Shown: positions 6,543-43,084 of the stretch, piece by piece
Numbering within the stretch: the first letter of the stretch is position 1
Layout: every line of letters starts with the position of its first letter
Origin: Acidobacteriaceae bacterium
Lineage (GTDB): Bacteria; Acidobacteriota; Terriglobia; Terriglobales; Acidobacteriaceae
Length of the DNA: 64,000 bases
Direction of reading: 5' to 3'
Assembly (NCBI GenBank): GCA_030041435.1
Contig: JASHNW010000077.1
Span: forward strand, 1-64,000
Translations under genes and position numbers: made by a program
The notes under the pieces: generated by a model
The model's database searches: none
Seen by the model: the letters and a program-made list of their open reading frames with translations, nothing else
What the model was told of the DNA's origin: nothing

Positions 6543-9005
6543 CTACTCTCTCAGTTCGACGATCGTGGCGCCGGCGCCGCCTTCGTTCTGCGGCGGTTCG
6601 GTGACGGAGGCGACCTGCGGCTGATTCCGGAGCCAGGCGCGGAGGGTGCGGCGCAGGACGCCCATGCCGGTGCCATGCACAATGCGGATGCGGGGCAAGC
6701 CAGCCAGGAAGGCGCGGTCGAGGAATTTCTCGACTTCGTCCCGGGCCTCATCGGCGGTGCGGCCGATGACGTTAATCTCGCTGCTCATGACATCGGGTTC
6801 GGCGACGGAAACGGTGATGCCGGAGTGGCGGCGCGCGGCGGCGATGGGCGTTTCGCCGGTGGGGCGGGCAGAGGAGAGCACTTCGGCGATTTCGTCGCGG
6901 GCGATGCGCATCTTCATGGGACCGACGGCGACCTCGAAGGTGCGGTCGTCGATCTGGCGCTGGACGGTGGCGGTTTTGCCGAGGGTGCGGAGTTTGACCG
7001 TGTCGCCGGCGGAGACGTGGCGGGCGATGTGCGGTTGCGCGTTCGAGTCTCCGCGGTCGGCGCCGGTGTGCTGGGCGACAACGGCGGTGTTGAAGCTCTC
7101 GGAGAACTCCCGGCGGAGACGGGCGATGCGCTGCTCGGCCTGTTTGGAAAGCTTTTGCTGGGCGGCGCGGTCTTCGATCGCGCGGACGGTTTCGCGAGCC
7201 TGATATTCGAAGTCTTTGAGCAGGGACTGGAGCTGGGACTCGAGGTCGCGGACTTTGGCGCGCCACTCCTTCATGCCTTCGGCGGCGAGGCGTGCACGCT
7301 CCTGGGCCAGGTCCTGCTCGAGGCGGCGGACACGGAGGCGCTCGGCGTCGAGCGCGGCAAGCTGCTCGTGGAGGCTTTCGAGGAAGCGGGCGATGTCCTG
7401 GGTTTGCGTGCTGAGGCGCCCGCGGGCGGCCTGAACGATGGCCGGACTAAGACCGATCCGCTGCGCGATATTGATGCCGGCGGAGGTTCCGGGTACGCCC
7501 TGGCGGAGCTCGTATGTCGGGGTGAGCGTCCGCTCGTCGAATCCAACCGCGGCGTTGACGGCCCCGGGATTGTTCTCGGCGTAGACCTTCAGGGACGTGA
7601 GATGCGTGGAGACGATGGACCAGGCGCCGGCGCGGAGGAAATGTTCGGCGATGGCGACGGCAAGGGCCGCGCCTTCTTCGGGATCAGTGGAGGAACCGAG
7701 CTCGTCGAGAAGAACGAGGGAATGCGATGTGGCCGCGGCGGCAATGCGGTTGAGGTTGGTGACGTGCGCGGAGAAGGTAGACAGGTCCTGTTCGATGGAT
7801 TGTGCGTCGCCGATGTCGGCGAGGAAGGCGTCGAAGGCGAGGGTGACGGCTTCTTCGGCAGGAACGGGAACGCCAGCCTGGGCCATGATGGCGACGAGGC
7901 CGGCGGTTTTAAGGCTCACGGTTTTGCCGCCCGTGTTGGGGCCGCTGACGATGAGCTGACGGTTGGGGCCGGAGAGCTCGAGCGAGATGGGAACAATTGG
8001 CTTCGATTCGGCACGGAGGCGGCGTTCGAGGAGTGGGTGGCGCGCGGCTTTGAGACGGAATTCGGGGGCGGTCTGCTCGGCAAAGCGGGGCACGACGCAG
8101 TCGTACTGCTGGGCGAAGCGGGCGCGGGCGAGCAGGGTGTCGACCTCGGCGAGCACAGCGGCGCCCTCAAGGATGGGTGCGGCGCACTGCGCGATTTGCC
8201 GCGTCATGTGGAGAAAGATGCGATGGATTTCGGCCTGCTCTTCTTCGAGGAGGCGGACGAGGTCGTTGTTCAGCTCGATGGTCTCGAGAGGCTCGACGTA
8301 GACAGTCTGGCCGGAGGAACTGGCGCCGTGAACGACGCCCTGGACGCGGCGCTTCCACTCAGTTTTGACGGGGATGACGAAGCGCTCGCCGCGGATGGTG
8401 ATGAGGTCGTCCTGCGTGGATCCGCCTTCGGAGTAACGGCGCAGGGCAGAGCGGAGGCTTTCTTCGATGGCGCGCTGCTGGCGCTCCATTTCGCGGCGAA
8501 TGCGGCGCAGGCCGGACGAGGCGTCGTCGGCGAGAGTGCCGTCGGGAAGGATTTTTTCGCGAAGGGACTGGGTGAGCGGGCGCAGGCTGGTGGCGAGGAG
8601 CGCCTGGCTAAGCGCGGTGAGCTCGGGGATTCGGTTAGCAGCGGACTCGGGAGGGGTGCGGATGAGGTCCGTCCACGAGGCGATTTCTTCGGCGAGAGCG
8701 ATGAGGGCGCGCAGCTCGTCCGATTCGAGAGCGACGCCGTCGATGCGGGCTTTGGCGAGAAGGTCGGAAGGATCAAAGAGGGAGCGGGTAACGGGGACGG
8801 CGCCTGCGGTCGACAGCAGGCGCATTTCCGCGACGAGGGCGTGCTGGCGGGCGATCCACGCGCGCTCCTGGGAAGGGATGAGGGCAGCGATCCAGGAGCG
8901 GCCGAGGGCGGACTGGGAATATGTGCCGAGGAATGCGACGAATTTGTCCCATTCGAGCGCGGCGCCGGGGACGACAGGCAGCGGGATGGCCGGCAGCAGG
9001 GGCAT
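6543..9005 (-). CDS. mutS2: MutS2-family DNA/ribosome-associated ATPase with Smr domain
   Basis: The 820-residue protein has the MutS core without the mismatch-recognition domain. Walker A GPNTGGKT lies at about 355-362, then LADIGDAQSIEQDLSTFS and the Walker B/signature region LLDELGSSTDPEEG. A long coiled coil (about 520-640) and a C-terminal Smr nuclease-like domain (about 743-815) with HGTGMG follow. The usual Smr LDLRG motif reads INVIGRTADEA here, so an Asp thought important for nuclease action is missing. Known MutS2 proteins suppress recombination or rescue collided ribosomes. Start codon ATG at 9005; the gene diverges from ilvA. Confidence 0.93.
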   Translation of the reverse strand: MPLLPAIPLPVVPGAALEWDKFVAFLGTYSQSALGRSWIAALIPSQERAWIARQHALVAEMRLLSTAGAVPVTRSLFDPSDLLAKARIDGVALESDELRALIALAEEIASWTDLIRTPPESAANRIPELTALSQALLATSLRPLTQSLREKILPDGTLADDASSGLRRIRREMERQQRAIEESLRSALRRYSEGGSTQDDLITIRGERFVIPVKTEWKRRVQGVVHGASSSGQTVYVEPLETIELNNDLVRLLEEEQAEIHRIFLHMTRQIAQCAAPILEGAAVLAEVDTLLARARFAQQYDCVVPRFAEQTAPEFRLKAARHPLLERRLRAESKPIVPISLELSGPNRQLIVSGPNTGGKTVSLKTAGLVAIMAQAGVPVPAEEAVTLAFDAFLADIGDAQSIEQDLSTFSAHVTNLNRIAAAATSHSLVLLDELGSSTDPEEGAALAVAIAEHFLRAGAWSIVSTHLTSLKVYAENNPGAVNAAVGFDERTLTPTYELRQGVPGTSAGINIAQRIGLSPAIVQAARGRLSTQTQDIARFLESLHEQLAALDAERLRVRRLEQDLAQERARLAAEGMKEWRAKVRDLESQLQSLLKDFEYQARETVRAIEDRAAQQKLSKQAEQRIARLRREFSESFNTAVVAQHTGADRGDSNAQPHIARHVSAGDTVKLRTLGKTATVQRQIDDRTFEVAVGPMKMRIARDEIAEVLSSARPTGETPIAAARRHSGITVSVAEPDVMSSEINVIGRTADEARDEVEKFLDRAFLAGLPRIRIVHGTGMGVLRRTLRAWLRNQPQVASVTEPPQNEGGAGATIVELRE

Positions 9006-9033: not shown

Positions 9034-9062
9034 TTGACATTGCGGGCGCGGTCTGGTGTGAT
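9034..9062 (+). promoter_or_regulatory. Predicted sigma-70 promoter for the ilvA leader transcript
   Basis: A perfect -35 box TTGACA (9034-9039) is followed after exactly 17 bases by TGTGAT (9057-9062), a 4/6 match to the -10 box. Seven bases further is position 9069, the A of the leader-peptide ATG. Transcription would therefore start at or very near the first codon, giving a leaderless mRNA. No transcript data are available; this is a prediction from spacing. Confidence 0.6.
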
Positions 9063-9068
9063 CGCGTT

Positions 9069-9152
9069 ATGGTTCGCCCCATCCCGTATGCGGCCGGTTC
9101 TATCGCGATTGCGCGAATTAGCATCGGTGTGCGCGAGGGAGCGGGCGGCTAG
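9069..9152 (+). CDS. Isoleucine-rich leader peptide of the ilvA attenuator
   Basis: A 27-residue reading frame, ATG 9069 to TAG 9150-9152, contains five isoleucines (positions 5, 12, 14, 17, 19) and two valines. Its core reads SIAIARISIGV. There is no clear Shine-Dalgarno sequence; the predicted promoter places the RNA start on the ATG, so it is probably translated from a leaderless transcript. Ilv leader peptides act as sensors: when charged tRNA-Ile is scarce the ribosome stalls on Ile codons and alters folding of the downstream RNA. The next gene, ilvA, makes the first committed intermediate of isoleucine, which fits. The frame is not a shadow of another gene, because mutS2 ends its reading at 9005. 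Confidence 0.7.
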   Translation: MVRPIPYAAGSIAIARISIGVREGAGG

Positions 9153-9214
9153 CGAGCAATCGCAGAAGGAAGTCCGACAGCCATCGCGCTCCGAGCGCCG
9201 GTGGCTTTTTCGTT
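9138..9214 (+). promoter_or_regulatory. Attenuator: mutually exclusive antiterminator and terminator before ilvA
   Basis: Terminator: AGCCATCGCGCT (9179-9190) pairs with AGCGC-C-GGTGGCT (9194-9206, one bulged C), followed by T5 and CGTTTTT. Competing antiterminator: GGAGCG (9138-9143) pairs with CGCTCC (9187-9192), and GGCT (9147-9150) pairs with AGCC (9179-9182). It therefore uses the same 5' arm as the terminator. A ribosome stalled on Ile codons 12-19 would cover RNA up to roughly 9138 and leave the antiterminator arm free. The ilvA start lies about 20 bases after the terminator. Pairings were made by eye without energy calculation. Confidence 0.68.
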
Positions 9215-9229
9215 TTTGGAGAGGAGACT

Positions 9230-10444
9230 GTGGTGAGCGTTACGCTGGAATCGATTCGAGCTGCGCGGGAGCGGATTCGCGGGCATATTTACTTATCGCC
9301 GGCGCGGCATTCGCCGGGGCTGTCGGAGATGACCGGGCAGCAGGTGTATCTGAAGATGGAGAACCTGCAGCGGACGGGAGCGTTCAAGGAGCGCGGCGCG
9401 CTGAACAAAATTCTGACGCTGACCCAGGCAGAACGGGAGCGCGGGGTGATTGCGGCCAGCGCGGGGAACCATGCCCAAGCGGTGGCGTACCACGCCGGCC
9501 AAGAGGGGATACGGGCAAGGATTGTGATGCCGCTGATGACGCCGCTGGTGAAGGTGGCGGCGACGTCGGGGTATGGGGCGGACGTGGTGCTGCACGGTGC
9601 GAACTACGATGAGGCGTGCGCGGAGGCGATCCGGCAGAGCGAGGCAGAGCGGCTGACGTTTCTGCATCCGTTCGACGATGACGCGGTGATTGCGGGGCAG
9701 GGAACGATTGGGCTGGAACTGCTGGAGCAGGTGCCGGAGCTGGAGGCTGTCGTGGCGCCGATCGGCGGCGGAGGGCTGATTGGCGGCGTGGCGTGCGCGA
9801 TTAAAGAGAGCAAGGCGGACGTTCGCGTCATCGGGGTGCAGACGGAGCGGCTGCCGTCGATGCTGCGGGCGAAGGAAGCAGGTCACCCGGTGACGATTCC
9901 GGCCGAAGCGACGATTGCCGACGGCATCGCGGTGCGGCGGGCGGGCGAGAAAACGGTTCCGCTGGTGACGAAGTATGTGGATGAGCTGGTGACGGTGGAC
10001 GAGGAGGAGATTGCCAGCGCGATTCTGGTGCTGCTGGAGCGGGAGAAGACGCTGGCGGAGGGTGCGGGCGCGGCGGCGCTGGCGTCACTGCTGCAGAAGA
10101 AGACGTCGCTCCATGGGCAGCGAACGGCGGTGCTGGTGTGCGGCGGCAATATCGACGTGACCCTGCTGTCGAAGATCATCGAGCGCGGGCTGGTGAAGGA
10201 TGGGCGACGGACCCGAGTGCGGATCCACCTGACGGACAGGCCGGGCGCTCTGCATCAGCTGACCAGGATCATTGCCGATCTGCGCGCGAATATCGTGCAG
10301 ACGGCGCACGACCGGGCTTATTATGGCGTGAGCCTGGGGGATACGGTGATCGATTTCACGCTGGAGACGCGCGGCGCGGGGCATATCGAGGAGATTCGCG
10401 AGGCGCTGACGGAAGCGGGATATCGGCACGAGCGAATTGAATAG
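9230..10444 (+). CDS. ilvA: Threonine ammonia-lyase with C-terminal ACT domain
   Basis: This PLP enzyme converts threonine to 2-oxobutanoate, the entry step to isoleucine. The 404-residue protein has the PLP lysine in GAFKERGALNK (about residue 53), ASAGNHAQAVAYHA, the phosphate-binding loop IGGGGLIGGVA and, from about residue 325, one ACT domain (RVRIHLTDRPGALHQLTRII). Single-ACT enzymes of this length occur in both biosynthetic and catabolic groups; the Ile-coding attenuator upstream argues for a biosynthetic role here. The start is GTG 9230 (or the adjacent GTG 9233), preceded by GGAGAGGAG. It diverges from mutS2. Confidence 0.92.
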   Translation: MVSVTLESIRAARERIRGHIYLSPARHSPGLSEMTGQQVYLKMENLQRTGAFKERGALNKILTLTQAERERGVIAASAGNHAQAVAYHAGQEGIRARIVMPLMTPLVKVAATSGYGADVVLHGANYDEACAEAIRQSEAERLTFLHPFDDDAVIAGQGTIGLELLEQVPELEAVVAPIGGGGLIGGVACAIKESKADVRVIGVQTERLPSMLRAKEAGHPVTIPAEATIADGIAVRRAGEKTVPLVTKYVDELVTVDEEEIASAILVLLEREKTLAEGAGAAALASLLQKKTSLHGQRTAVLVCGGNIDVTLLSKIIERGLVKDGRRTRVRIHLTDRPGALHQLTRIIADLRANIVQTAHDRAYYGVSLGDTVIDFTLETRGAGHIEEIREALTEAGYRHERIE

Positions 10445-10458
10445 GAGTGCAGAATAAA

Positions 10459-10549
10459 CAGTACACAGTGCACAGTGCGCAGTACACAGTGCACAGTACG
10501 CAGTACACAGTGCGCAGTGCACAGTGGGCAGTGCGCAGTACACAGTCGG
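10459..10549 (+). repeat. Tandem array of thirteen 7-bp CAGTRCR repeats
   Basis: Thirteen consecutive heptads occur, each beginning CAGT: CAGTACA, CAGTGCA, CAGTGCG, CAGTACG and a few variants, with CAGTGGG and a terminal CAGTCGG as outliers. The array begins 15 bases after the ilvA stop and ends 5 bases before the stop codon of the four-helix-bundle gene, which reads towards it. The variants differ only at positions 5-7. This is not a CRISPR: there are no spacers. Confidence 0.9.
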
Positions 10550-42992: not shown

Positions 42993-43084
42993 GGAGAGGT
43001 GGCAGAGCCCGGTTGAATGCACCTGACTCGAAATCAGGCATACTCGTAAGGGTATCGGGGGTTCGAATCCCTCCCTCTCCGCCA
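42993..43084 (+). tRNA. tRNA-Ser(CGA)
   Basis: The acceptor stem GGAGAGG (42993-42999) pairs with CCTCTCC (43074-43080), followed by discriminator G and an encoded CCA (43082-43084). The anticodon arm CTGACTCGAAATCAG gives anticodon CGA, reading UCG. A long variable arm (ACTCGTAAGGGT region) and the T-loop GGTTCGAATCC complete a class II tRNA-Ser. Confidence 0.96.

Follow-up and report, generated by a model that had tools for sequence, protein, structure and literature searches.

The window analysed here, a stretch of 64,000 nucleotides, comes from a soil Acidobacterium (Acidobacteriaceae) and carries ilvA, whose product, threonine ammonia-lyase, is the first dedicated isoleucine enzyme. This ilvA appears to be a lone gene. 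Its divergent neighbour is mutS2, whose coding region begins at 9005, 63 nt from the ATG of a short leader ORF placed ahead of ilvA. Downstream are a tandem repeat and then, on the opposite strand, a gene for a 23S-rRNA-intervening-sequence protein. The repeat lies directly 3′ of ilvA (10446-10546) and has a period of 7/14/21 (CAGTACACAGTGCACAGTACG). The sole tRNA gene of the window, tRNA-Ser(CGA), is located at 42993-43084.

The region upstream of ilvA includes, in order, a putative promoter, the leader ORF and an intrinsic terminator (Table 1). The −10 hexamer TGTGAT occupies 9057-9062, with a TG at 9054-9055 and a spacer of 17 nt to the −35 element. Only six nucleotides, CGCGTT, separate it from the ATG at 9069 and these contain no Shine-Dalgarno sequence. 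The leader peptide, MVRPIPYAAGSIAIARISIGVREGAGG, includes five Ile and two Val. Around its end, GGAGCG (9138-9143) is exactly complementary to CGCTCC (9187-9192) and GGCT (9147-9150) to AGCC (9179-9182), both in the 5′ arm of the terminator. The latter is followed by a second T run (TTTTT, 9213-9217). This layout had been proposed in an earlier, sequence-only reading, together with the 27-codon peptide with its five Ile and two Val and the exact complementarity of the two arms, and direct reading found every element where it had been placed. The same reading put ilvA about 20 bases after the terminator. A start of ilvA at GTG 9230 is possible, but GTG 9233 is more likely, since relatives begin there and the AGGAG sits 6 nt upstream.

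Table 1. Features of the ilvA leader region, in window coordinates
Feature	Position	Strand	Basis
−35 element, TTGACA	9034..9039	+	Read directly; TTGAC at equal spacing in ~40 relatives
Extended −10, TG-n-TGTGAT	9054..9062	+	Read directly
Leader ORF, 27 codons plus stop	9069..9152	+	Ile-rich short ORF, position conserved in the family
Conserved core CGA-ATT-A (Arg-Ile codons), 11 codons ahead of the stop	9114..9120	+	Alignment, codon statistics, stalled-ribosome fold
Antiterminator 5′ arm (segment 2: GGAGCG + GGCT), up to the first base of the stop codon	9138..9150	+	Exact complementarity; cognate versus permuted pairing
Segment 3: 5′ arm of the terminator and alternative partner of segment 2	9179..9192	+	
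Intrinsic terminator, stem 9179-9206 and T run 9206-9210	9179..9210	+	Hairpin and T run in 39/41 leaders; covariation
ilvA Shine-Dalgarno, AGGAG	9222..9226	+	Read directly
ilvA, threonine ammonia-lyase with C-terminal ACT domain	9233..10444	+	TIGR01127, 490.6 bits (cut-off 378.75); Pfam PALP and ACT

Taken alone, the site is unremarkable: its fold has a z of -1.6 and simple consensus scans of the window flag neither the promoter nor the terminator. Comparison with relatives therefore had to decide. IlvA orthologues were gathered from 61 related genomes and from 80 named loci, almost all of which carry Acidobacteriaceae or Acidobacteria in their titles. In about 40 of these relatives the corresponding position ahead of ilvA shows a short ORF, preceded by a TTGAC-17/18-TNNNNT promoter and followed by a terminator. 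Their −10 elements are TG-n-TCTACT, TG-n-TTTCAT or TG-n-TTTCCT at a spacing of 17-18 nt. The leader peptides themselves are strongly diverged, mostly remaining rich in Ile, as in MLQPRSIHAAITIAIARITTPITHGAGG (L038), MHRVMTNAPAIISRIISAIMIIPSP (L053), MSRIMTIPAITISRIIGVMIIIPPS (L056) and the peptide ending in SISICIHIIRISFEQDAGA (L042), and some contain only two or three Ile. Ile occupies 188 of the 1161 leader codons, compared with 40 +- 6 in nucleotide shuffles (maximum 59 in 1000 shuffles); the choice of leader ORF mildly favoured frames with at least three Ile, most loci offering a single qualifying start and frame. The Ile content of the leader frame is 16.2%, that of the other two frames 1.6% and 1.4%, and that of the IlvA proteins themselves 7.4%. 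Val, Leu and Thr show no parallel enrichment. The ilvA leaders are short ORFs enriched in codons for the end product of the pathway, and the conserved Ile-rich frame in relatives, for which the sequence-only reading had suggested a check, favours an attenuator. Sensing of threonine, the substrate of the ilvA product, was considered and set aside: Thr accounts for 4.7% of leader codons against 16.2% for Ile. Neither a T-box, a riboswitch nor any known Rfam leader family matched the window at the gathering threshold, and a lax threshold returned chance-level hits only.

An intrinsic terminator, a hairpin with a T run, lies between the ORF and ilvA in 39 of 41 leaders. In its alignment 92.9% of cells are paired and changes on both sides of a pair occur in 38 cells compared with 10.3 after shuffling, counts which sequence relatedness inflates. 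The covariation score is 0.404, against 0.189 for shuffled alignments and at most 0.172 when the alignment is slid. For the antiterminator, the segment at the stop codon pairs with the terminator 5′ arm of its own leader with a mean energy of -18.8 kcal/mol, compared with -15.5 (sd 0.46) once the arms are exchanged at random between species, and none of 10000 permutations (0/10000) was as good. Here relatedness works against the contrast, because close relatives have near-identical arms. The two arms switch together across lineages, from GGAGC/GCUCC in the window's genus to GCGGG/CCCGC elsewhere. When the whole alignment is given to RNAalifold, the terminator alone is recovered, since the register of the antiterminator shifts between lineages. 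Covariation of the stems, which the sequence-only reading had also suggested as a check, is found in the terminator itself, and each antiterminator pairs best with its own terminator. In combination with the Ile enrichment, the covarying terminator and the cognate antiterminator pairing are decisive in taking the observation beyond chance.

To follow the interplay of the two helices, 35 leaders were folded at the moment at which the terminator loop emerges, with the ribosome placed at different positions. Placed on the core Ile codon, the ribosome allows five or more antiterminator pairs in 34 of the 35 leaders; placed on the stop codon, it allows them in none (0/35). In these folds the antiterminator is mutually exclusive with the terminator, hidden when the ribosome is at the stop and available upon a stall. 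The Arg-Ile core sits 9-14 codons before the stop in 33/35 leaders. In the window RNA without translation, segment 2 is predicted to be taken up by pairing with the 5′ portion of the leader ORF, which lets the terminator form. For the untranslated RNAs of relatives, the full-length fold is the terminator in 32/35 and the antiterminator is present in 22/35 co-transcriptional intermediates, so that termination without translation through such a protector pairing would not be general. At equilibrium the stalled window RNA still prefers the terminator (-33.5, compared with -29.8 for the antiterminator). The switch must therefore be kinetic and would rely on the order of synthesis, as known attenuators do.

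We consider with high confidence that the element is a ribosome-mediated transcription attenuator sensing charged isoleucine tRNA, and that the enzyme is very probably made only when isoleucine runs short. Conservation, Ile enrichment, the pair of alternative helices and the dependence on ribosome position are computed results; promoter use, leaderless initiation, stalling and the regulation itself are inferred, as follows. Transcription would start on or beside the leader ATG and the ribosome would initiate without a Shine-Dalgarno sequence. When isoleucine is plentiful, it would reach the stop codon and cover segment 2, leaving segment 3 to form the terminator, and transcription would end ahead of ilvA. 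When isoleucyl-tRNA is short, it would stall at Ile codons, critically at the ATT of CGA-ATT-A, the probable critical stall site. The freed segment 2 would then pair with segment 3 before the 3′ arm of the terminator exists and the polymerase would read on into ilvA.

Among 41 leaders, 35 have a start codon 6-14 nt past the −10 and no Shine-Dalgarno-like 4-mer, whereas such a 4-mer is present at 28 of 39 ilvA starts. The gap is 6 nt in the window and in three congeners, placing the predicted transcript start on the ATG. The same attenuator might not be leaderless: its RNA could begin further upstream, or just a few nucleotides ahead of the ATG, with the start codon recognised in another way. 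We regard this variant as unlikely. It draws on relatives whose gaps of 9-14 nt predict 5′ ends about 2-8 nt ahead of the start codon rather than at it, and on four congeners (L023, L037, L049 and L066) with a gap of 24 nt, three of which include a Shine-Dalgarno-like 4-mer (AGGA). Against it stand the 6-nt gap of the window, CGCGTT, with no Shine-Dalgarno sequence, and the 63 nt available before the divergent mutS2 coding region. Leaderless initiation is likely in this window. By this evidence a leaderless or near-leaderless start would be the rule among ilvA leaders, and a changeable one. This fits with the prediction that about 13% of acidobacterial genes are leaderless (PMC3160421).

The distribution of the element was examined with a covariance model built from 36 leaders and searched in 300 genomes of the family (79 genera). 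Matches occur in 77 of the 300 genomes and 28 of the 79 genera, counting weak matches on other genes. Cultured relatives that have the element include Acidipila rosea (L048), Paracidobacterium acidisoli (L047) and Occallatibacter savannae (L095). Of the 30 highest-ranking sites, 27 lie ahead of ilvA and the remaining three (in G003, from the window's genus, and in G220 and G244) ahead of PaiB-like and citramalate-synthase-like ORFs. At L147, L148 and L149 an FMN-binding PaiB-like ORF stands immediately ahead of the citramalate-synthase-like gene, under an Ile leader. The citramalate-synthase-like protein is of about 560-570 residues and its best family is TIGR00977, with a score of about 300 bits that lies below the curated cut-off of 450. 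Citramalate synthase is a known alternative entry to isoleucine. These three genomes have no close ilvA and contain only relatives at 39-40% identity. The leader thus seems to track isoleucine rather than ilvA, because in genomes without this ilvA it precedes the citramalate-synthase-like gene. In G019, whose ilvA carries the leader, a citramalate synthase gene is present without one. The element is absent from the closely related G005, G006 and G010 and from ilvA genes of Granulicella/Edaphobacter. Two congeners (L010 and L013) also lack the leader and a small helix-turn-helix-like ORF precedes ilvA instead.

Weaker matches within the family lie before aspartokinase genes, with Thr-rich peptides, before ilvD, and before ilvB, where the core is CGA-GTT-A (Val). 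The aspartokinase leaders (L150, L151, L154, L156, L158, L161 and L163) combine a Thr-rich peptide, CGAATTA or close variants, and a terminator; in L156 and L158 the CGAATTA element occurs twice. At two weak matches, L157 and L164, short unidentified ORFs come next. Outside the family, similar leaders (L181, L182, L184, L185, L188 and L197) precede ilvD, ilvB, threonine dehydratase, homoserine dehydrogenase, prephenate dehydratase and glutamate synthase genes. For the weaker matches inside and outside the family, peptides and stems were judged by inspection and nine of the gene identities were checked. In the genome from which the window derives, no leader is visible directly upstream of the ilvD-ilvB and aspartokinase genes, which closely follow other ORFs. 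The same genome carries a second leaderless-looking attenuator before a peroxiredoxin-like gene (L168; G000:C105:68483-68545, minus strand), with the layout TTGACA-18-TAGGCT-7 nt-ATG, a peptide MIASAPTCMCCCCCRGNMRVCP and a terminator. It would be unusual for a peroxide-defence gene to have a cysteine leader.

The core itself is conserved beyond its coding content. Its Arg codon is CGA in 33 of 34 leaders, compared with 7 of 82 at other places in these peptides, and its Ile codon is ATT in 34 of 34, compared with 93 of 154 elsewhere; the following base is always A. The core is conserved as nucleotides, and a control codon at a fixed place accounts for the Ile but not for the CGA. Slow decoding of CGA immediately upstream of that codon might be the cause, or pausing of the polymerase. 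No consistent pairing partner for CGAATTA was seen in the alignment, which was examined by eye. The Arg-Ile core might alternatively arrest the ribosome as a nascent peptide and sense free isoleucine or another small molecule instead of uncharged tRNA. This would account for a conservation of CGA-ATT-A far past the need for an Ile codon and for the presence of RI(S/T) in the Thr-rich aspartokinase leaders as well. We nevertheless consider it improbable, as the remaining peptide diverges freely with Ile staying abundant, and the core codon is GTT in an ilvB leader, as predicted by tRNA sensing.

The ilvA leader is possibly, and we propose this tentatively, one branch of a phylum-wide, previously undescribed and mostly leaderless set of attenuators in Acidobacteriota sharing a CGA-NTT-A whose role extends beyond codon reading. 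Its members would sense Ile on ilvA and citramalate-synthase-like genes, Ile/Val on ilvB and ilvD, and Thr on aspartokinase and homoserine dehydrogenase genes, and CGA-NTT-A would act on the ribosome or the polymerase.

Two further readings were weighed. The modest statistics of the window alone would allow a constitutive insulating terminator behind a chance ORF, with no amino-acid response. This is very improbable in view of the Ile-rich frame kept in relatives, the covariation of antiterminator and terminator, the leader on the citramalate-synthase-like gene and the computed ribosome-position switch (34/35 versus 0/35). Translational coupling, with the leader ORF mainly supplying ribosomes to ilvA, is scarcely credible either: re-initiation after short leader genes may increase translation across many phyla, including Acidobacteria (PMC4833913), but here the leader stop lies at least 77 nt before ilvA with the terminator in between, and ilvA has its own Shine-Dalgarno sequence.

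The mechanism of the isoleucine attenuator is classical leader-peptide attenuation. In enterobacterial ilvL (ilvGMEDA) and thrL, a ribosome stalled at Ile codons, or at Thr and Ile codons, frees the antiterminator, and the ilvA leader would resemble them in this use of control codons. Unlike it, they are led by a Shine-Dalgarno sequence, control whole operons and respond to Ile/Val/Leu or Thr/Ile. A similar arrangement, a short ORF rich in branched-chain codons followed by a terminator/antiterminator, is found at Corynebacterium glutamicum ilvBNC (IlvL; ilvB-II motif; PMC11857589, PMC10272879), where the leader starts one nucleotide from the transcript start and has no ribosome binding site (PMC11857589). 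It differs in controlling ilvBNC, sensing Ile/Val/Leu with 15-17 codons and belonging to another phylum, whereas the present leader precedes a lone ilvA and would sense Ile alone. The leader peptide of Sinorhizobium meliloti trpL is also leaderless, its RNA beginning at the ATG (PMC7298713), but concerns tryptophan and trpE(G) in Alphaproteobacteria. The ilvB-OMG and Leptospira ilvB RNA motifs likewise have uORFs with many branched-chain codons and occur in various phyla (PMC10272879), but they precede ilvB and not ilvA, and neither matches the window in Rfam. The novelty that the sequence-only reading attached to a leaderless version therefore holds for the phylum and the lone ilvA, but not for leaderlessness as such, since leaderless branched-chain attenuators and attenuator peptides were already known. 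New features are the occurrence in this phylum, the combination of a lone ilvA and a sensor for Ile only, and related leaders ahead of aspartokinase, ilvB, ilvD and homoserine dehydrogenase genes; no earlier description in Acidobacteriota was found in the literature searched, subscription literature lying outside the search.

The arrangement found in this soil bacterium is kept across its family. A signal and a mechanism can be assigned to one leader family in one of the commonest soil phyla, and the leader offers a specific case of an attenuator peptide whose start is probably the RNA 5′ end. Its presence on a citramalate-synthase-like gene where this ilvA is missing suggests that regulation follows the product of the pathway and not the enzyme.
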